This document shows, in pieces, positions 11,478-26,542 of a DNA stretch of 29,419 nt. Both the position numbers and the translations under genes were made by a program. Numbering within the stretch: the first letter of the stretch is position 1; every line of letters begins with the position of its first letter. This DNA comes from a virus, in IMG/VR virus record IMGVR_UViG_3300030098_000657, positions 1 through 29,419 of that record; one strand, written 5' to 3'. The notes below the pieces were generated by a model. That model searched no databases. It was given only the letters and a program-made list of their open reading frames with translations, and was not told the DNA's origin.

Positions 11478-12526
11478 TATGTCACCTCACATGCCTCTTT
11501 GTAAACATTCTCCAATATTTTTTTAACCTTAGACTTGTCAATAGAAGTTTCAACCTCATCAACATACTGACTCAACAGACTAAGTGTATCTTCACTCTCT
11601 TGTCCTTGATATTCATGTGTAACAAATCCACTACCATAATCAAATGATTCAATAGTTTTTAACTCTGCAACACCTGCTTGATATAACTTATCAATAAACT
11701 TATCCAGTTTAGTTCCTTTTCCTTTGTCCTGGACAATTACTTTAACAATTTTATTTTCATAAGGACGTGCATCAAATGTCTGATGGTTAGTGTCATTAAA
11801 ATATATCTTCTCAAAAATACTAAAAGGATTATTGATTGGTGTATGTTCTAAAGTTTCGGTATCAAAGATATGAAATCCTCTTACATCTCCACAATCATTC
11901 CAATAGATCTCATATGGATTACCTAAGTAATGAATATTCTCTTGAGAGTTTCTATGATGATAGTGTCCAGAGTATACCTTTTCAAAGTCTTTATATATTC
12001 CTTTATCATGACCATGCTCCATAACATGATATGCATTAGCCAAGAAACCATTAAGTTCTAAATGTCCCATGACAACACGACACTTAGACTTCTTAAGTTG
12101 TTTATACGTATTATCTTGATTATCAGAGTTTACCCAAGGTACAAATGATATATCCAATCCACCAAAATTCAGTTCCTCATATTCAGTGATAACACGGATA
12201 TTATCGTACTCTCGTAATAATAATTCGCAAGCATTGATCTCATTAGTATTCTTGTAGTAGGCGGTGTGATTACCAACAATAGTCGTAAGATTAATTTTCC
12301 TATCTCGTAGAATGTCGAAATAGTTTTCTTTGGCCCAAGAGAGAGCACTGAAATTAATCCCTGTGCGATTATCGAAAGTATCCCCCATATCAATAACGGT
12401 ATCGATATTATTATCTTTGAGATATGGAAAAAAGATTTCATCATAAAACTTCTGGAAGAAGTCGTGAAACAGTTTTGAATTTTTGCGAGCACCAAAATGC
12501 TGATCGGTTATGATCGCAACCTTCAC
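11477..12526 (-). CDS. gp47: Recombination endonuclease subunit gp47 (Mre11/SbcD-like)
   Basis: A 349-residue calcineurin-type phosphoesterase, near the 339 of T4 gp47. Metal-binding motifs appear in the expected order: D8-x-H10, GDTFD at 48-52, GNH at 85-87, GHLELNG, and GHYHH. It is the nuclease partner of gp46 and makes 3' single strands for UvsX-dependent strand invasion. The start codon is GTG at 12526, overlapping the gp55 stop as GTGA. Confidence 0.95.
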   Translation of the reverse strand: MKVAIITDQHFGARKNSKLFHDFFQKFYDEIFFPYLKDNNIDTVIDMGDTFDNRTGINFSALSWAKENYFDILRDRKINLTTIVGNHTAYYKNTNEINACELLLREYDNIRVITEYEELNFGGLDISFVPWVNSDNQDNTYKQLKKSKCRVVMGHLELNGFLANAYHVMEHGHDKGIYKDFEKVYSGHYHHRNSQENIHYLGNPYEIYWNDCGDVRGFHIFDTETLEHTPINNPFSIFEKIYFNDTNHQTFDARPYENKIVKVIVQDKGKGTKLDKFIDKLYQAGVAELKTIESFDYGSGFVTHEYQGQESEDTLSLLSQYVDEVETSIDKSKVKKILENVYKEACEVT

Positions 12527-13029
12527 TGATAACCACTCCGAAGTTTTGTATGGATATTATCCTTGATGCTATTATAATCCGAATAGTTCCCTCCGTCAAG
12601 TGTGTTATCATCAACCATCACTTGTTCATATCCAGAACGTTCTAAAATTTTGTTCTTGACTTCTAGTTGTCTTTTCTCCCTTTGAATACGTCTAAGAAAA
12701 GCGTAATGTATGATCTGGGTAAAATAAGCGAAAGGATTACTAGATTTAGCAGGATCAAAATTATTGATATACTGCACACAGTTTTCAATTCCATCACAGA
12801 CCATATCATCTTTGAACATGTAATTGACAAAGTTTGGTTTGTATGACAGATGGGTTGCTATTTTTAGGAAACATTCACCAAGGTAATTAGTTATCCTAGG
12901 CTTAGGTTTTCCAAGTTCTTCTGCTTCTTTTACCGATTGCTTGTATGCAACAATAGCAGCAAGAAACTCCTTATTGTTTACATAGTGCTCGGAACGGGCT
13001 CTCCGTCTTGGCATAGTTGCTAATGACAT
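12523..13029 (-). CDS. gp55: Late-transcription sigma factor gp55
   Basis: A 168-residue protein, compared with 185 in T4. The recognisable sigma-like core is FDPAKSSNPFAYFTQIIHYA then FLRRIQREKRQL (about 105-135), which corresponds to sigma region 2; RARSEHYVNNKEF near the start is typical of marine gp55. It directs host RNA polymerase to late promoters with a TAAATA core, several of which occur in this window. The ATG at 13029 is preferred over 13014 because an AGGTGAGA ribosome-binding sequence precedes it. A perfect sigma-70 promoter lies 16-22 bases further upstream, so expression from host polymerase before late phase is expected. Confidence 0.93.
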   Translation of the reverse strand: MSLATMPRRRARSEHYVNNKEFLAAIVAYKQSVKEAEELGKPKPRITNYLGECFLKIATHLSYKPNFVNYMFKDDMVCDGIENCVQYINNFDPAKSSNPFAYFTQIIHYAFLRRIQREKRQLEVKNKILERSGYEQVMVDDNTLDGGNYSDYNSIKDNIHTKLRSGYQ

Positions 13030-14993: not shown

Positions 14994-15417
14994 AACCAGC
15001 AATAAATTTCTGCCACTCAATCGCATTCTTAATTTGATAAGTTCGATTACTTATCTGTTTTAAGATGCTCTCACAATAATTTAGGAGAGTTTCATAGTAG
15101 TCAATTTTGAGGTTAACTTCTTTTAGTTTTTCATCAGCATCAAGATACTTGGTCATAGTATCTTTATCTCTTATCTTCTTTCCAAAAGGATTCTTTTCAT
15201 ACACCTCTGGGTCTGCTTTTCCAGAATAGTATTCATATCTTTCATGTCTAATGTTTTTTCTTTGTTGTTCTGCTTTCTTTCTCAACAACAAAAAATTATT
15301 AAACATCTCATGGTACTTAGCATGTAATGCTGGTACTTTTAATGATTCTGTGTGAAGATTATCTGGATCAATCTGTGAGTCTTTCTCCCACATACTTTGC
15401 AAAGTTTCTAAATTCAC
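14986..15417 (-). CDS. uvsY: UvsY recombination mediator
   Basis: A 143-residue mostly helical protein, similar in size to T4 UvsY (137). Its segment MWEKDSQIDPDNLHTESLKV near the start, and the later EYYSGKADPEVYEKNPFGKK, are typical of the marine form. UvsY helps UvsX recombinase displace gp32 from single-stranded DNA. The start codon is GTG at 15417, overlapping the previous stop as GTGA. It sits directly before uvsW, as in T4. Confidence 0.93.
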   Translation of the reverse strand: MNLETLQSMWEKDSQIDPDNLHTESLKVPALHAKYHEMFNNFLLLRKKAEQQRKNIRHERYEYYSGKADPEVYEKNPFGKKIRDKDTMTKYLDADEKLKEVNLKIDYYETLLNYCESILKQISNRTYQIKNAIEWQKFIAGYG

Positions 15418-15983
15418 ATTGGTTGACCTTGATTGTTAACGATATTGTAGATAGTATATTTGAATGTTACCTCTGCAGTGAAGTAATCTATACTACCAGG
15501 TGTGGCATCAAACTGTAATGTTGTTAGTTCAGTTGGCCATAGATCATTATATTTTACCATAAATTGGGGATTATTGGTAGAGTCTAATACCATCAATGTC
15601 CCGTCACTCACTAGGTTATCTGGATTATTGGGATCAGAATCTGGAAAGCGATCATCCTTTCCACTTCTTAATAATGCAATCTCATTTAAACTATCTGGGT
15701 ATGCTATTCCACGCATCCAGTTCTGTATTTGCATATAGTTTTCTAAATTCTCATCAACCAAGAACCTTAAGGTAAAGTCTTGGAAATCTATCTTGTCACC
15801 AGGTCTTGGAATATCTTTAAGATAAGTTGGTTGTTCAGCAGGTTGTATATTAAGACCTGGTATTTGTGCAGTATTAGAAAAGAAACTTACCTTAGGGCAT
15901 TTGACCAATGTGAATTTAAATCCAATTGGTGAAAGAAAATTTCTATTTTGTATCTGTTTCTCAAATGGATTACTTGTTGCCAT
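15414..15983 (-). CDS. Tail-tube-fold protein in the gp3 position
   Basis: A 189-residue protein with the T4 gp19 tail-tube type pattern: FTLVKCPKVSFFSNTAQIPG at about 24-43, then a DIPRPGDKIDFQDFTLRFLV segment, ENYMQIQNWMRGI, and a C-terminal strand FTAEVTFKYTIYNI. In cyanophage annotations the gene in this place, between 23 and uvsY, is usually called gp3 (tail completion). Its sequence looks like a tail-tube paralog, so a role at a tube end (terminator, cap or adaptor) is likely. It follows the terminator after gene 23 and has its own late promoter box. Confidence 0.75.
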   Translation of the reverse strand: MATSNPFEKQIQNRNFLSPIGFKFTLVKCPKVSFFSNTAQIPGLNIQPAEQPTYLKDIPRPGDKIDFQDFTLRFLVDENLENYMQIQNWMRGIAYPDSLNEIALLRSGKDDRFPDSDPNNPDNLVSDGTLMVLDSTNNPQFMVKYNDLWPTELTTLQFDATPGSIDYFTAEVTFKYTIYNIVNNQGQPM

Positions 15984-15984
15984 C

Positions 15985-16009
15985 AGTTCACGCAGGTCTC
16001 CAATGAACT
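15985..16009 (-). repeat. 6-bp inverted repeat before the tail-tube-like gene
   Basis: AGTTCA (minus strand 16009-16004) pairs with TGAACT (15990-15985), which ends one base before the ATG. The upstream arm lies between the late box and the expected transcript start, so only read-through RNA could form the hairpin. Confidence 0.35.
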
Positions 16010-16016
16010 ATTTAGA
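16009..16016 (-). promoter_or_regulatory. Late promoter box before the tail-tube-like gene
   Basis: Minus-strand TCTAAATA, one base different from the T4 late consensus TATAAATA, lies 26 bases before the ATG at 15983 and merges with the T-tract of the terminator after gene 23. Confidence 0.6.
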
Positions 16017-20171: not shown

Positions 20172-20179
20172 TATTTATA
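20172..20179 (-). promoter_or_regulatory. Perfect T4-type late promoter before gp67
   Basis: Minus-strand TATAAATA overlaps the end of the portal gene and lies 17 bases before the gp67 ATG. ATAAC at its end could pair weakly with GTTAT at the start codon (5 bp). Confidence 0.72.
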
Positions 20180-21881
20180 TCTCTCCGTCCTTAGGTAGTT
20201 TTGTCATACCTGCGTCTTTCGATCCTTCAAGGTTTGGTTCCATAACTGGAGCACCTAAATCACCGCCACCACCAGCTGCTTGCTCTCCTACACCTGGAGA
20301 CATACCATTGAACCCATCAACTGTCATTGCTATTTCTGCAGGATCTTGAATTATTCCTTCTGCAATTTCCTTTTCAATCAGTTCATCTTGTTCTAAGATA
20401 TCCTCATCAGATTGGCGAAGAATTTGTCTCCTAATATAGTCTTGAGAATAGTACTTACCAATATAAGGTTCTGCTTCCATAGCAAGAGAGAATCTTTCTC
20501 TTTGTAATTCAGCATCTTTAAGTTCTGAGAAATGATTATCATAGTTAAAGTCAAACTGAATATTCTCAGACATTGACTCCCAATCCTCAGGAGTACAAAC
20601 ATTCTTAAGAAGACATTGAGTTCTTAAAATATCTAAGAATAGATTAGAAAATCTCTTACGTAATCTACCAACAAACTTGGTAAACTTAAGTTCATCTCTT
20701 AAGATTTCAGAGGATCTACCTAAGTTAAATCCACCATCTCCTTCAATTCTAGAGATAGGAACATTGAGTGACTTATAAAGTTTCTTCTTAAAGTATTCAA
20801 TATCTGTAATCTCTCCAAGGTTTTGTCCACCTGGAAGTGTTGAGATCTCAGTTCCTCTTCCACCCTCACGTCTAGGTAACCAGAAGTCCTCCATCATAGA
20901 CATGAACTTCTTGTCATCACGGATTTCTCCAGTGTTTGCATCGTAAACTAATTTGTTACGATACCTCATCATGACATCACGAAGGTATTGTTCGGCCTTC
21001 ATCTTAGGAAGATTACCTACATCAATGTAGAATATTCTTCTTTCTGGAGCACGAGATAAGCGATAGATTACAAGACTATCCTCAATCATTCTAAGTTGAT
21101 TAAGTGATTTGATTGCCTTATGAAGGTATGAAAGAACAGAACCTTTGTTTCTATCTACCAATCCTGAAGTACAATATGCAATAGAGTCTTTCGAGAAACG
21201 GACACCTTTAGTGTCTGTAAGGTCACTAGATGGGTTTAGAGCACCACCTACAGTGTTCTTAGTACTGTAAATAAAATATTCTTCTATATCTGGAAATGCA
21301 CTATGAATACTATTAACTTCTTTTTGACTCTGGATAGCAGCTATTCTACCTGCTTCACCTGCTTTATCTTTAACAGCATGACGAACAAAACGCATTTTCA
21401 TTGCGTCAATGTAACGCAACTCTTGAATACCCTCTTCAGGTTTCTTTAGATCGATAACTTTATGATAATATAATCTACCATCTACATACCAGTTACGATA
21501 TATCTCATGAGATTTTTTATCAAAATCTAAAAGATCTTTAACAAATTTAAATTCTTCTCTAATTTTTTTCTTAATACCATCACTAGCATTTAATTTTGAT
21601 AGTTCAATCTCTACAGGACTTTCATTAGTATCAGATACTATTGCTTCTTGTATAACATCTTCAATTGCAGCATCCACTTCTGGATGCAAAGCCATCTCTC
21701 TGTATCTACGTATTAATTGAAACTCATTCTTAAATACACCTTCTAAGTCAACATAGTTGCCAAAAAACCCCGAAGTCATATAGTAATCACTTTGGTCCTC
21801 TTTGGAATCGGGGACTGGTGATACTACCGACTTCGGAGTTTCTTCATTATTCTCAATCGAGAATCCAAATAATTTAGCCAT
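20175..21881 (-). CDS. gp20: Portal vertex protein gp20
   Basis: A 568-residue protein, compared with 524 in T4. Marine gp20 landmarks include RRYREMALHPEVDAAIEDVI near 60-80, YRLSRAPERRIFYIDVGNLP near 290-310, then FWLPRREGGRGTEISTLPGG near 345-365. It forms the dodecameric ring through which DNA is packaged by gp17 and to which the neck attaches. The C-terminal 60 residues are a low-complexity Gly/Ala/Pro tail. It has its own late box and hairpin upstream. Confidence 0.96.
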   Translation of the reverse strand: MAKLFGFSIENNEETPKSVVSPVPDSKEDQSDYYMTSGFFGNYVDLEGVFKNEFQLIRRYREMALHPEVDAAIEDVIQEAIVSDTNESPVEIELSKLNASDGIKKKIREEFKFVKDLLDFDKKSHEIYRNWYVDGRLYYHKVIDLKKPEEGIQELRYIDAMKMRFVRHAVKDKAGEAGRIAAIQSQKEVNSIHSAFPDIEEYFIYSTKNTVGGALNPSSDLTDTKGVRFSKDSIAYCTSGLVDRNKGSVLSYLHKAIKSLNQLRMIEDSLVIYRLSRAPERRIFYIDVGNLPKMKAEQYLRDVMMRYRNKLVYDANTGEIRDDKKFMSMMEDFWLPRREGGRGTEISTLPGGQNLGEITDIEYFKKKLYKSLNVPISRIEGDGGFNLGRSSEILRDELKFTKFVGRLRKRFSNLFLDILRTQCLLKNVCTPEDWESMSENIQFDFNYDNHFSELKDAELQRERFSLAMEAEPYIGKYYSQDYIRRQILRQSDEDILEQDELIEKEIAEGIIQDPAEIAMTVDGFNGMSPGVGEQAAGGGGDLGAPVMEPNLEGSKDAGMTKLPKDGEI

Positions 21882-21883
21882 CT

Positions 21884-21911
21884 ATACTATGGACTATACC
21901 GTTCATAGTAT
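21884..21911 (-). repeat. 8-bp inverted repeat next to the portal start codon
   Basis: ATACTATG (minus strand 21911-21904) and CATAGTAT (21891-21884) are exact reverse complements with a 12-base loop. The downstream arm ends two bases before the ATG. The upstream arm overlaps the late box and precedes the expected transcript start. Confidence 0.55.
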
Positions 21912-21916
21912 TTAGT
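21909..21916 (-). promoter_or_regulatory. Late promoter box before the portal gene
   Basis: Minus-strand ACTAAATA, 27 bases before the gp20 ATG. It has the TAAATA core but C instead of A at the second position, as at the box before the tail-tube-like gene. Confidence 0.55.
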
Positions 21917-21928
21917 ATAGCACAAATA

Positions 21929-22573
21929 TTACCTTATGTCTGCAGCCTCTGCAGATCCAAATGACTCGAAGAACTGAACTTGGAATTCAACTGTAAACTC
22001 TTCAAGAGTGTCACCTGTTTCGTAAGATAATGCTATCTCAGAAATGTTAGTTGGGAAGATATCAAAGAACTTGTATGCTCTCAACACATTTGCTGCTTCT
22101 GTAGGGCCTGGACCAGTTATATCAGCAGTTGGAGATTCGGATGCAATAGTTGCTCCTCTACCTAACTGATACACAAATGCATCTTGCATGTAAGAAGTAG
22201 GTGCGGTTGCTCCAGTGTTATTATCTAACTTGGAGATACCATTCATCCATCCTTCAAAAGCAGTACGAAGTCTAAAGTCTTCGTCGTTAATAACTGTAAT
22301 AGTCCAAGGATCGAAAGTTCTGTCTCCAGCAACTTTTAAAATACGACCTCTGAAAGGAACGTCTATTGGTGCGACGTTAGATGCAGGAAGATTAGCAGCC
22401 TTACATAAGAAGCGTAGATTGCTCTTATCATCATTGTTGTAGACTGCACCGACATAATCTGGGAAGCTAGGAATTGCTACTTCAAACAGATTAGGACGTG
22501 CTCCACCACCTCTCAGTTTACTTTTAAACTGAGAGATATTTCTTACTGCAGGGGGGTTTGGTGCGGTTGCCAT
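21929..22573 (-). CDS. gp19: Tail tube protein gp19
   Basis: A 214-residue protein between sheath and portal, as in T4 (163 residues there). It contains NLFEVAIPSFPDYVG near the N-terminus, FLCKAANLPASNVAPIDVPF at about 50-70, GRILKVAGDRTFDPWTITVI, and a C-terminal strand LEEFTVEFQVQFFESF, all typical of the gp19 family. It stacks as hexamers to form the inner tube. A GGAG ribosome-binding site precedes its ATG, 17 bases after gp18. Confidence 0.95.
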   Translation of the reverse strand: MATAPNPPAVRNISQFKSKLRGGGARPNLFEVAIPSFPDYVGAVYNNDDKSNLRFLCKAANLPASNVAPIDVPFRGRILKVAGDRTFDPWTITVINDEDFRLRTAFEGWMNGISKLDNNTGATAPTSYMQDAFVYQLGRGATIASESPTADITGPGPTEAANVLRAYKFFDIFPTNISEIALSYETGDTLEEFTVEFQVQFFESFGSAEAADIR

Positions 22574-22590
22574 TTACGTTTGCTCCTTAA

Positions 22591-24789
22591 TTATACTCTA
22601 CCAGCAACTTCCTCGAAGCTGACACCTGTGCGAGTAGCAACAAATGTTAGTGAAACGAAGTTGATAGATTTAGCGGGCTTGAGGAAGATGTCAGCACGGA
22701 ACTCATTATTATCTATGACATCTGGTGTGTTGTTTGTCTCGTCACAAATTACTAGGAAGTCATAAAGACCACGCTTACTTTGTACGTCACGTAGATATGG
22801 TTCTACGATATTGATAAAGTTTGCACGAGTAATTTCGTCATTGAACTCAAAGAGTTGAGCTTGTGCAGCTCTCTCTAGTGCCTGCTCGACTGTAAGGAAC
22901 AGTCTTCTAACGTTAATTCTGTCAAACGCTGAGGCATAACTAAGGGCAGTTTTGTCTCCGAAGAGCATAATGCCGATACCAGGACGGAATACAATCGGGT
23001 TGATCCGCTTGGTGTAAAGTGAATCTCTTTGTGCCTGCGTAGGATTGTAAGCCAACTTAGTAGCGTTATTAAGAACACCACGTTGTTGTCCTGCAGGAGA
23101 GAACCAAGGGAAGAACTCTCTATTAGTTCTTACCATTAGTCCAGCAATGTCTCCGTTACATGGAACATATCGGAATTCATTGTTGAACCTATCAAACATA
23201 TACTTATAACCACTATCTAGAATTAGATATGAAGATGAATTTGCACCATCTAGAGTGGCAATAACGTTTGATGTTTGTGTTGCAGAGTTGGTGATGTTAA
23301 CAACGTCTCCACGTTGAGGACCAGCAACAGCAACGCAATCTTTTCTATTCTCGGCAAGATCTGCTAACTTGTTGATCTTAGCTTGTGATTCTGCTCTAGT
23401 ATCACAACCAGGACCAGCAATCAAGTAATCAACAGCGATCTCGTCTTTTGTTTGGAACTTGTTGTAAGAAGTAATCAAAGCACCGAGTGTTGCCTTGAAT
23501 CCATTTGCAGCAGTGTAATCATTACCACCTGTAAGTGAATAAGTGGTAGCACCAATACCTGCAAAGTATCTTACATCTCCAGCATTCTGTCCCCACTGTG
23601 CATCAGCATTGCTAATAGCAGTGAACTGTGTATCAGCAAAACCAGTGTTAACTGGTCCAGTAAGACGCAGTGCGTCAAATGCTATGGATGGATTATATCC
23701 TGCAAATATTTTCTCTGAGAAGTCTGCAAGATAATTCTTATACCAAATGTTTTGTCCAGCACCAGATGTATTCTCAGCATCAAGTGCTTTAGAAAGTGAG
23801 ACGTGCTTCTCAAGGATATTACCCTTGATACCTGTGATTGATCCAGAGTCATCAACAACAACGACATGCATTGCATCGTTGTATGCACCTCTCTCAACAA
23901 CGTACTGATTAGTTACTGGTTTCTGAGCAATTGATTTCCAGAAGATAGTTGCGTTATCTAATTGGAGAGTCTGAGAATCATACCAATCTGCAACTGCAGA
24001 AGGTGTGAATCCACTAGAAGAATCTACTGTACCAGCAGGAAGCGTTGTGAACAAAGCTTGTGTGGTATCAAATGCATAGATGCCTCCTTCAGTGTAATCA
24101 ACCTTAGTTTCGGTTGAACCACCACCAACTGTTTCTACACGAGAAACAACCTTAACATCAATTGTTGAATTACCACCAACAGCGTCAGTAGAAACACCAG
24201 TAACAATACCCTTAAGGAATCCTGTGAAACTAGAAGTAGTTCCAGCACCAGGAAGAACTGTGCTTAGGGGAGCAGTTATACCATAACCAACAGTTACACC
24301 AGAACCTGCTAAACTTGTAGAAGATACAGTAAGTGTCTGATCAGCAAAGTCGTCAACGAAACAAACTTTTAGACCTTTTGCCCAAGTACCAGGATTCTTA
24401 GCGGCGTAATAGAAATCGGTAGCATTAGTGTAGTTAGACTGATAATCGTCGTAACTCTTAATCTTCAGAGTAGTAGTATTAGCAATACCAACACCAGCGT
24501 TAGCATTCTTGAGGTCATCATCATCAGTTCTAGCAACCTTAATGATACCACCATATGAGAGGAATGACGATGCTGTCATCCAATATTCATACTGACTGTC
24601 GGTGCTCAATGGCTTACCGAAAGTGTTGATTAAATCCTGTTCTGTTTCCACAGTGATTGGATCATCAACAGGTCCAAGTTCAAAAGGGCCTGCGATTGCA
24701 CCGATATTATCGAGTACATTATCCGCCCTTCCTACTGTTAGATCGACTTCCCTGATTAATACACCAGGTGATACTAACTGAATAGCCAT
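22591..24789 (-). CDS. gp18: Contractile tail sheath protein gp18
   Basis: A 732-residue protein, longer than the 659 of T4. The opening MAIQLVSPGVLIREVDLT and the C-terminal segments FRPGIGIMLFGDKTALSY, VRRLFLTVEQALERAAQAQL and EPYLRDVQSKRGLYDFLVIC are standard for T4-type sheath proteins; these C-terminal parts build the conserved contractile core. The middle (about 150-330) is variable, Thr/Ser-rich and likely surface-exposed. It has its own late box after gp17, and an AGAGGG ribosome-binding sequence inside an inverted-repeat arm. Confidence 0.97.
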   Translation of the reverse strand: MAIQLVSPGVLIREVDLTVGRADNVLDNIGAIAGPFELGPVDDPITVETEQDLINTFGKPLSTDSQYEYWMTASSFLSYGGIIKVARTDDDDLKNANAGVGIANTTTLKIKSYDDYQSNYTNATDFYYAAKNPGTWAKGLKVCFVDDFADQTLTVSSTSLAGSGVTVGYGITAPLSTVLPGAGTTSSFTGFLKGIVTGVSTDAVGGNSTIDVKVVSRVETVGGGSTETKVDYTEGGIYAFDTTQALFTTLPAGTVDSSSGFTPSAVADWYDSQTLQLDNATIFWKSIAQKPVTNQYVVERGAYNDAMHVVVVDDSGSITGIKGNILEKHVSLSKALDAENTSGAGQNIWYKNYLADFSEKIFAGYNPSIAFDALRLTGPVNTGFADTQFTAISNADAQWGQNAGDVRYFAGIGATTYSLTGGNDYTAANGFKATLGALITSYNKFQTKDEIAVDYLIAGPGCDTRAESQAKINKLADLAENRKDCVAVAGPQRGDVVNITNSATQTSNVIATLDGANSSSYLILDSGYKYMFDRFNNEFRYVPCNGDIAGLMVRTNREFFPWFSPAGQQRGVLNNATKLAYNPTQAQRDSLYTKRINPIVFRPGIGIMLFGDKTALSYASAFDRINVRRLFLTVEQALERAAQAQLFEFNDEITRANFINIVEPYLRDVQSKRGLYDFLVICDETNNTPDVIDNNEFRADIFLKPAKSINFVSLTFVATRTGVSFEEVAGRV

Positions 24790-24797
24790 GCTTGCGT

Positions 24798-24856
24798 CCC
24801 TCTGAGAGTTCCCAATTTCCTACAAATTATTTATTGAAAGCTACTTTTTCAGAGGG
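24798..24856 (-). repeat. 8-bp inverted repeat enclosing the gp18 late promoter
   Basis: CCCTCTGA (minus strand 24856-24849) and TCAGAGGG (24805-24798) are exact reverse complements 43 bases apart. The downstream arm contains the gp18 ribosome-binding sequence AGAGGG; the late box lies between the arms. Confidence 0.55.
24828..24835 (-). promoter_or_regulatory. Late promoter box before the tail sheath gene
   Basis: Minus-strand AATAAATA, 38 bases before the gp18 ATG, between the arms of a long-range inverted repeat. It matches the NATAAATA late consensus. Confidence 0.66.
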
Positions 24857-24874
24857 GAAACCGTGCGTGAACTA

Positions 24875-26542
24875 CTAACGATACTCCCACATATAACTCA
24901 TATCACCATAGGTTGACTCTATATCATCCCTATCTGCCTTAGTCCATCTAGTACCATCTTCATCTACAAATGAGTCATCTTCTAGTCCATCAAGCATAAA
25001 ACCAAATGGTGCCATGTCCTGTTCTATCTGATCTCTTTGATCTTCATATAGTCTTTTTCTTACATCTTGATCAGTAAGTTCTTTAAAATAATCCTGTGCC
25101 ACCAACCATGCGTATATCACAAGACACATTGCTAAGTCATCATTACAACCATCATCTGCTTCAAAGGAATTACTCTTTGAGATAAATGTAGTCAATTCTG
25201 ATATGATGTCATAATCATTAAATAAAACCTTGTCAGCCTCAATCATTGTCTTAAGATTCAATGCTCCGACTTTCTTCACAGTCTTGGACATCTTAACACC
25301 AAGTTGAACCTTAGATCCAGAGAATCCTTGTCCTATAACCTGTCCTGCTCTTCCTCTCATTGATGACATGAGAAGATTAGGATATTCAAAATCATAATTT
25401 AATATAGATGCTACCTGATCTCCTATATCATTTACCTCAACTAATATAAAAGCATCATTGTATCCTTTACAAGTTTCGTGTATAATATTAGGGAACAACA
25501 TAGGTTTAATTTCATTATTCCTATACTTTGCTACAACTTTATGGGGAAATGTGGTTATGTCTACGATTATAAATGTAGAATAATCTTCACCCACACCACG
25601 AGCAACGTCCACAGTGCAAACATAATCATGTTTCTCTTGTGGTTCCTCATATAAATCCAATCCTTCATTCGACATTTTTGGTTTGTCATAAACCAAGGAT
25701 TTTAATTTTGCTGGATTTATTAAAGTGTCAACAGAACCTAAGAAGTTACATTCAAACTCAACCTTGAATTGTGCTTCTGATGTGTTAGCAATAGTTTGTT
25801 GTTTCCATGCTTCATCTCTACCAGGGACTTCACTCCAATGGACTACAGTAGGTACATATTCATTATCTCCGTTCTCAGCATCGTGCCACATGCGATAGAA
25901 GTGGTTCATACCCTTAGGGGTAGAGACGATGATAATCTTAGTTGATTTACCAGATGAAATTGTAGGATATACTGAACTAAAAAAGTCGTCAGCAATATGA
26001 TTAGGAACGAATGCAAATTCGTCTAGGAATATGATGTTAAAGGTCATACCCCGAACTGCAGCAGCAGAGGTAGATGCTGCCATAATCTTAGAACCGTTCT
26101 CCAGTTCTAAACTACCTTTGTTCCATACGAGGATACCCTGTTGCATCCATTTTGGTAAGTTTTCGTAAGCAGTCTGAAGTCTTGCTAACAAGTCTCTGGC
26201 AGTCGCTGCCTTGTTTGCAAGGATACCAATATTAACATTATCATTAAAGATAGCATAATGAAGTAGATAAGATACAGACGTGGTTGACTTACCAGTCTGT
26301 CTAGGCATCATACAAATATTAAATCTATTCTCATGAAATCTATTAATTAACTTTTCTTGGAAGGGCCACATATCAAACCCAACCAGTCCCTCATCAACGT
26401 TTACAATCTTGATATATTCACGAGCAAAATAAACTGGATTAAGTTTGCACTTAATAAATTCATTAATTTGTTCACGGGTAAAATCAATCTCAGTATTTGC
26501 TTTCTTGAGATTGGGATTACCAAGATATATTTCTTGAGCCAT
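24875..26542 (-). CDS. gp17: Terminase large subunit gp17
   Basis: A 555-residue DNA-packaging motor, compared with 610 in T4. ATPase motifs: Walker A MPRQTGKST at 79-87 and Walker B IIFLDEF at 170-176, with a coupling motif near STPKGMNHFYRMW. The C-terminal RNase H-like nuclease has the acidic triad in VCTVDVARGVGEDYSTF, FILVEVNDIGDQ, and GCNDDLAMCLVIY. It translocates DNA through the portal and cuts the concatemer. It starts two bases after the 123-residue gene. T4 has small terminase gp16 just before 17, but no gp16-like protein is recognised here. Confidence 0.97.
   Translation of the reverse strand: MAQEIYLGNPNLKKANTEIDFTREQINEFIKCKLNPVYFAREYIKIVNVDEGLVGFDMWPFQEKLINRFHENRFNICMMPRQTGKSTTSVSYLLHYAIFNDNVNIGILANKAATARDLLARLQTAYENLPKWMQQGILVWNKGSLELENGSKIMAASTSAAAVRGMTFNIIFLDEFAFVPNHIADDFFSSVYPTISSGKSTKIIIVSTPKGMNHFYRMWHDAENGDNEYVPTVVHWSEVPGRDEAWKQQTIANTSEAQFKVEFECNFLGSVDTLINPAKLKSLVYDKPKMSNEGLDLYEEPQEKHDYVCTVDVARGVGEDYSTFIIVDITTFPHKVVAKYRNNEIKPMLFPNIIHETCKGYNDAFILVEVNDIGDQVASILNYDFEYPNLLMSSMRGRAGQVIGQGFSGSKVQLGVKMSKTVKKVGALNLKTMIEADKVLFNDYDIISELTTFISKSNSFEADDGCNDDLAMCLVIYAWLVAQDYFKELTDQDVRKRLYEDQRDQIEQDMAPFGFMLDGLEDDSFVDEDGTRWTKADRDDIESTYGDMSYMWEYR

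Follow-up and report, generated by a model that had tools for sequence, protein, structure and literature searches.

A probable gene e-type RNA hairpin around the portal gene late promoter of T4-like cyanophages, and a conserved element upstream of the sheath gene late promoter

Late genes and late promoters of the window

The window analysed here (29,419 nucleotides of viral DNA, IMG/VR record IMGVR_UViG_3300030098_000657) carries the head-tail module of a T4-like cyanophage, in which gp17, gp18, gp19, gp20 and the genes for the prohead protease, the scaffold and gp23 follow one another in that order on the minus strand. The large terminase gene gp17, whose reading frame ends with YMWEYR and the stop, spans 24875..26542, the tail sheath gene gp18 22591..24789, the tail tube gene gp19, placed by synteny with annotated cyanophages, 21929..22573, and the portal gene gp20, placed by its tblastn relatives as well as by synteny, 20175..21881. 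Transcripts of T4-type late promoters are expected to start 6 nt after the late box. A gp55-like late sigma factor is also encoded in the window (12523..13029, minus strand; phrog_234, E 1.2e-70), which supports the use of late promoters of the NATAAATA type; this box is shared with the cyanophage late promoters that have been reviewed (PMC2984593). In the papers covered by a text search, cyanophage late promoters are described by the box alone, with neither hairpins nor an upstream element.

The late promoters of gp18 and gp20 each lie at an inverted repeat, and a preliminary description of the sequence had read both as one device: RNA reading through from upstream genes would fold and hide the ribosome-binding region. 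That proposal finds support for its geometry at gp20, where enrichment, arm-swap tests and compensatory changes stand behind it, and is largely unsupported at gp18.

The gp20 hairpin in the window and its clade

The gp20 late box, ACTAAATA (21909..21916, minus strand), is of the NATAAATA type with one mismatch; T4 spacing puts the predicted late transcript start at 21903 (minus strand), 6 nt after the box. The 5' arm of the hairpin, ATACTATG (21904..21911, minus strand), does lie between box and predicted start, as had been described, with the refinement that its first three bases are also the end of the box; its last base directly precedes the predicted start. A loop of 12 nt separates it from the 3' arm, CATAGTAT (21884..21891, minus strand), which stops 2 nt before the ATG (21881), and in the continuation of the predicted fold the AUG is paired as well. 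Folding of this region of the window beats that of its shuffled counterparts (z -2.39 and -3.24, with 4 and 2 of 200 shuffles as good).

Folding with and without the upstream arm, the check that the preliminary description had proposed, separates the two RNAs clearly. The read-through RNA of the window reaches -16.3 kcal/mol (z -3.24) and the late RNA -4.3 kcal/mol (z 0.07); the probability that the gp20 AUG is unpaired is 0.02 in the former and 0.96 in the latter. Corresponding values in close relatives are 0.05 and 0.79 (L001), 0.06 and 1.00 (L002), and, weaker and in the same direction, 0.19 and 0.49 (L205); masking of the AUG is absent in L206 (0.53 versus 0.49). The window shares identical arms with L205, L206 and L002, the differences in length falling mainly in the loop. 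In L001 the 5' arm is one base shorter and the altered 3' side now matches the stretch before the box (TGCTATA/TATAGCA), so that pairing is retained with a different partner. Arms within the window clade are mostly identical, and the covariation signal thus comes from relatives. Rfam returned no match.

The gp20 hairpin across relatives

The wider comparison covers 327 gp19|gp20 junctions, picked through gp18 or gp20 protein similarity or through the gp18-promoter pattern, and never through gp20 hairpins; stem counts refer to 91 non-redundant junctions. A late box lies 15-60 nt ahead of gp20 in every one of the 327, and A is the commonest base at the predicted start position (54 of 91). Strong stems adjoining the box occur in 22 of the 91 junctions, against 3.7 in shuffled leaders (maximum 7 in 40 rounds) and 6.5 with swapped leaders (maximum 11 in 40 rounds). 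Stems straddling the predicted start are three-fold enriched, at 29 of 91 versus 9.7 expected (maximum 14 in 30 rounds), and are missing in about two thirds of lineages; the P-SSM4-like clade has a gp20 stem in none of its members. Over the gp20 junctions, read-through RNA is more structured than its shuffles (mean z -0.73) and late RNA less so (+0.27).

Native arms out-pair swapped arms at each of three levels of redundancy (p<0.0001, n=80; p 0.0001, n=37; p 0.04, n=12); with reversed arms as the control, the signal is weaker at n=80 (p 0.002) and absent at n=37 (p 0.09). One clade, in which the stem begins ACTAG, has two-sided changes at 4 of its 8 pairs, and 142 of its 160 cells are paired, whereas the best of 5000 arm shuffles reached 140. 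For this count the register was set from the conserved ends, MAFFT having shifted hairpins by one base. Conservation or co-variation of the arms, on which the preliminary description had let its reading stand or fall, is accordingly found at gp20, through four compensated pairs in one clade. On a quick gp20 tree, supported branches carry 10 or more gains or losses of the hairpin as a trait; together with the lineage-specific stem sequences, this indicates that gp20 stems arise repeatedly with different sequences.

In the main class of gp20 stems the 5' arm is anchored at the box end (-4 to -1) and the distance to the ATG varies. Many type-A stems have a 5' arm that extends past the predicted start by a few bases, and type-B stems end 14-25 nt upstream of the ATG, too distant for simple masking. 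On average, the native upstream arm lowers start-site accessibility by a small amount (0.511 versus 0.532, p 0.043).

Comparison with T4 gene e and with other late promoters

Control by a hairpin at a late promoter is known in T4 for e (lysozyme), soc, 49 and I-TevI (PMC3014915, PMC2988022). The scan used here, run on the T4 relative RB10 as a positive control, recovers e, 49, I-TevI and soc; four further RB10 matches were discounted as divergent late promoter pairs, which occupy the same positions on both strands. At RB10 gene e the 5' arm begins 4 bases before the box end, the register of the main gp20 class, and the analogy with gene e that had been drawn from the window is to this extent borne out for gp20. 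The likenesses are that the late box sits in the 5' side (strand) of the hairpin, that the hairpin exists only in the longer upstream RNA, and that the start region is covered there, the AUG of the window being taken up in pairing when RNA reads through and exposed in RNA from the late promoter; selection on the structure, as judged by covariation, is a further gene e-type property found at gp20. The differences are that the gp20 device sits inside the late structural block, so that the upstream RNA is itself late, that a clear Shine-Dalgarno sequence is not seen in gp20 leaders, that the stem sequence varies by lineage, and that the evidence presented here is computational.

The same geometry at two structural genes had also been taken to suggest a general timing device, and this extension is not supported. 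The other late promoters of the module that were tested (orf80 and gp22) lack hairpin enrichment, and in three cyanophage genomes 5 of 72 stems score at least 16 where about 2 are expected, S-SM2 and P-SSM4 being at chance and S-RIM44 having 3 versus 0.5. General late-promoter hairpins in cyanophages were rejected, there being no clear enrichment.

Several individual structures deserve a record. In the window, a stem TAGTTCA/TGAACTG (15984-16016) runs from the late box TCTAAATA to the ATG of an ORF of the tail-tube family (15414-15983) and, in the window sequence alone, shares the geometry of the gp20 hairpin; inside the gp20 coding sequence (about 21748-21840), CCGAAGTC/GACTTCGG followed by GGTTTTTT is terminator-like with a long loop. 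Before gp13 of S-RIM44 (box near 12795 of L450, about 112795 of the genome), a terminator-like AAGTCCCTGCCTG/CAGGTAGGGACTT followed by T's has the late box in its loop. Rhizobium phage RHph_I1_18 (L202) has, before its portal gene, the terminator-like arrangement GACCTCGC-box-GCGAGGTTTTTT, with the late box CTAAATA in the loop. At gene 9 of RB10 (L478, about 2660-2695), a stem TTTCTTTAT/ATAAGGAAA surrounds the late box, with an AAGGA ribosome site in its 3' arm; it is possibly a further case of the T4 gene e type.

The gp18 repeat and the element upstream of its promoter

The gp18 late box, AATAAATA (24828..24835, minus strand), lies within the 43-nt loop of an inverted repeat whose arms, CCCTCTGA (24849..24856, minus strand) and TCAGAGGG (24798..24805, minus strand), flank it as had been described; the downstream arm holds the Shine-Dalgarno-like AGAGGG (24803-24798), 8 nt ahead of the gp18 ATG (24789). 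The preliminary description had warned that each match might be chance. For gp18 in the window the warning was apt, shuffled versions of the region folding about as well as the region itself (z -0.48 and -0.79), whereas gp20 folds beyond chance. The 3' arm TCAGAGGG is restricted to the window, L001 and L044, and in L002 one pair is broken without compensation; failing covariation beyond the closest relatives, the arms were rejected as a conserved hairpin.

The CCC of the upstream arm belongs to something else: a conserved TTTCCCC that forms part of the element GTTCACG-N4-GTTTCCCC (24854..24872, minus strand), recognised by its logo, its fixed spacing and its uniqueness. The consensus GTTCAYG-N4-GTTTCCCC recurs at the same place in about 140 gp17|gp18 junctions, and the logo includes loci selected by TTTCCCC, by which those columns are inflated. 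In an unbiased set of junctions, selected by gp18 protein alone, the element is present in 56 of 69, with a spacing to ATAAATA of 19 nt in 52 and 20 nt in 4; in the window the late box lies 18 nt past TTTCCCC and ATAAATA 19 nt, and the element repeats with an 11-nt period, from GTTCACG to GTTTCCC. In the genomes searched, exact and one-mismatch matches fall at the gp17|gp18 junction and elsewhere are sporadic, at chance level. That the spacing between element and box is fixed while leader length varies points to promoter function in DNA. TTTCCCC was rejected as a plain anti-Shine-Dalgarno arm: it is constant while the ribosome site varies (GGAG, GGGG, AGAGG), and TTTCTCC would pair better with gp18 ribosome sites, yet TTTCCCC is retained.

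There is accordingly a good case, the firmest of the readings offered in this paper, that the gp18 hairpin is incidental, its C-rich arm being supplied by the promoter-associated TTCAYG..TTTCCCC and matching by chance the ribosome site of one clade. The prevalence and near-constant spacing of the element in the unbiased set and its indifference to changes of the ribosome site argue for it, as do the unremarkable folding of the window and the finding that native upstream arms hide the gp18 ribosome site no better than swapped ones (0.248 versus 0.257, p 0.33). Set against it are the L001 region, which folds with a z of -2.53, a swap test of the 18 nt before the box (p 0.0005, n=68; p 0.03, n=25), and a modest excess of stems between pre-box sequence and leader that score at least 16 (19 of 68, with 8.6 and 9.9 expected), so that some lineages may have a hairpin of this kind at gp18. 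Averaged over phages, openness of the gp18 ribosome site is 0.25 in read-through RNA versus 0.39 in late RNA; with the excess of long stems, this may reflect a generic effect of read-through at gp18.

A small ORF lies directly before the element in 132 of 140 element-bearing junctions. It is an endonuclease-VII-like Zn-ribbon (phrog_4723; for example L199:3693-3920) that overlaps the gp17 3' end in most relatives, and its strongly conserved protein, which ends in YPDW, has the pattern CR.CG..K.L...FY..RK..S.YSYECK.CT..W.YPDW; Pfam and PDB searches gave no confident relative. The ORF falls in the T4-GC282 group (S-SM2 SSM2_111), which has been described at the gp17 3' end as a homing-endonuclease remnant, most copies being called likely non-functional because catalytic residues are missing (PMC3037559). 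The present ORF differs from that description in the strong conservation of CxxC..YSYECK.C..YPDW, which suggests a working Zn-ribbon protein that lacks the nuclease part, and in its co-occurrence with a cis element of the gp18 promoter. The window clade has the element and is missing the ORF; the window record being a fragment, the ORF may lie elsewhere in this phage.

The homing endonuclease I-TevI autorepresses its transcription at a late promoter (PMC2988022), and offers a model of such a protein acting at a late promoter. The gp18 element differs in lying upstream of the box and not over it, and its binding by the Zn-ribbon protein is putative, a conjecture by analogy. It is rather unlikely, and is put forward as a speculation, that the cyanophage gp18 promoter is a two-part promoter, unlike the box-only promoters of T4, with its -35-region element bound by the Zn-ribbon protein, a domesticated relative of homing endonucleases that would regulate the sheath gene.

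A hairpin that would insulate portal synthesis

At gp20 the geometry and its enrichment were computed here, as were the covariation of the arms and the shift in accessibility that folding predicts; from these, and from a transcript start placed by T4 spacing, we infer an effect on translation and a purpose in dosage. The 5' arm lies in the stretch from the late box to the predicted transcript start, and RNA reading through from gp18-gp19 would contain it along with the 3' arm, fold, and cover the gp20 start region; RNA started at gp20's own late promoter would lack the 5' arm and have its start region open. In many marine T4-like phages, read-through transcripts would then probably yield little portal protein. 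The likely use is that portal synthesis need not follow the sheath and tube message, which is abundant: an insulation of dosage rather than a matter of timing. The T4 virion has about 12 copies of the portal protein and well over a hundred of sheath and tube, which makes dosage insulation the more natural purpose; with gp17-gp19 upstream being late structural genes themselves, timing by early read-through has little force, and insulation fits better.

In the main rival reading at gp20, the hairpin stabilises the 3' end of the gp18-gp19 message or marks a place where that message is processed, and overlaps the promoter only because the junction is short. The hairpin does lie directly past gp19, often overlapping or adjoining its stop, its structure is retained while the sequence changes, as with stabilising hairpins, and the stems of type B stop well short of the ATG; the small mean effect on start-site accessibility and the distance of some stems from the AUG are what keep this alternative in contention. 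It does not account for the main class, in which the 5' arm keeps its place relative to the box end but not to the ATG, for stems lying entirely within the gp20 late leader being without excess (9 versus 8.2 expected in the 91 junctions), or for the window clade, in which the stem extends to the AUG. We give it a minority chance, large enough to be reckoned with.

That the gp20 hairpins are intrinsic terminators, ending the gp18-gp19 transcript and enclosing the next promoter, is improbable. A T run follows a few gp20 stems (L038, L189 and L202), and the S-RIM44 hairpin before gp13 has such a form, but gp20 stems as a group are followed by 2.07 T's in 6 positions versus 2.10 expected and the window has no T run, on which account this candidate was rejected. 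Still less probable is a symmetry that works in DNA, as a cruciform or as the operator of a dimeric protein: the palindromes do sit on a promoter, but their sequences are lineage-specific, leaving no common operator, and divergent promoter pairs, to which the T4 signal is partly due, do not explain the gp20 case. On balance the reading to be preferred, with somewhat better than even confidence, is a joint one: the gp20 late promoter lies within a selected RNA hairpin of the gene e kind, likely serving dosage insulation, and the gp18 hairpin is local to one clade and overlies a conserved promoter element.

Implications

The gp20 case is a known type of device at a new gene and with new evolutionary behaviour; the gp18 promoter element is a separate matter, and newly noticed. 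It raises a testable question, whether some gp55-type late promoters have a second, upstream recognition site. At gp20 the selected feature seems to be the position of the promoter within a hairpin, and not the sequence of the hairpin. If the reading is true, a form of post-transcriptional control that T4 is known to use chiefly for genes with early or middle transcripts reaches a core virion gene of abundant marine phages, and the placement of a promoter within a hairpin would help to explain how neighbouring structural proteins come to be made in unequal amounts.
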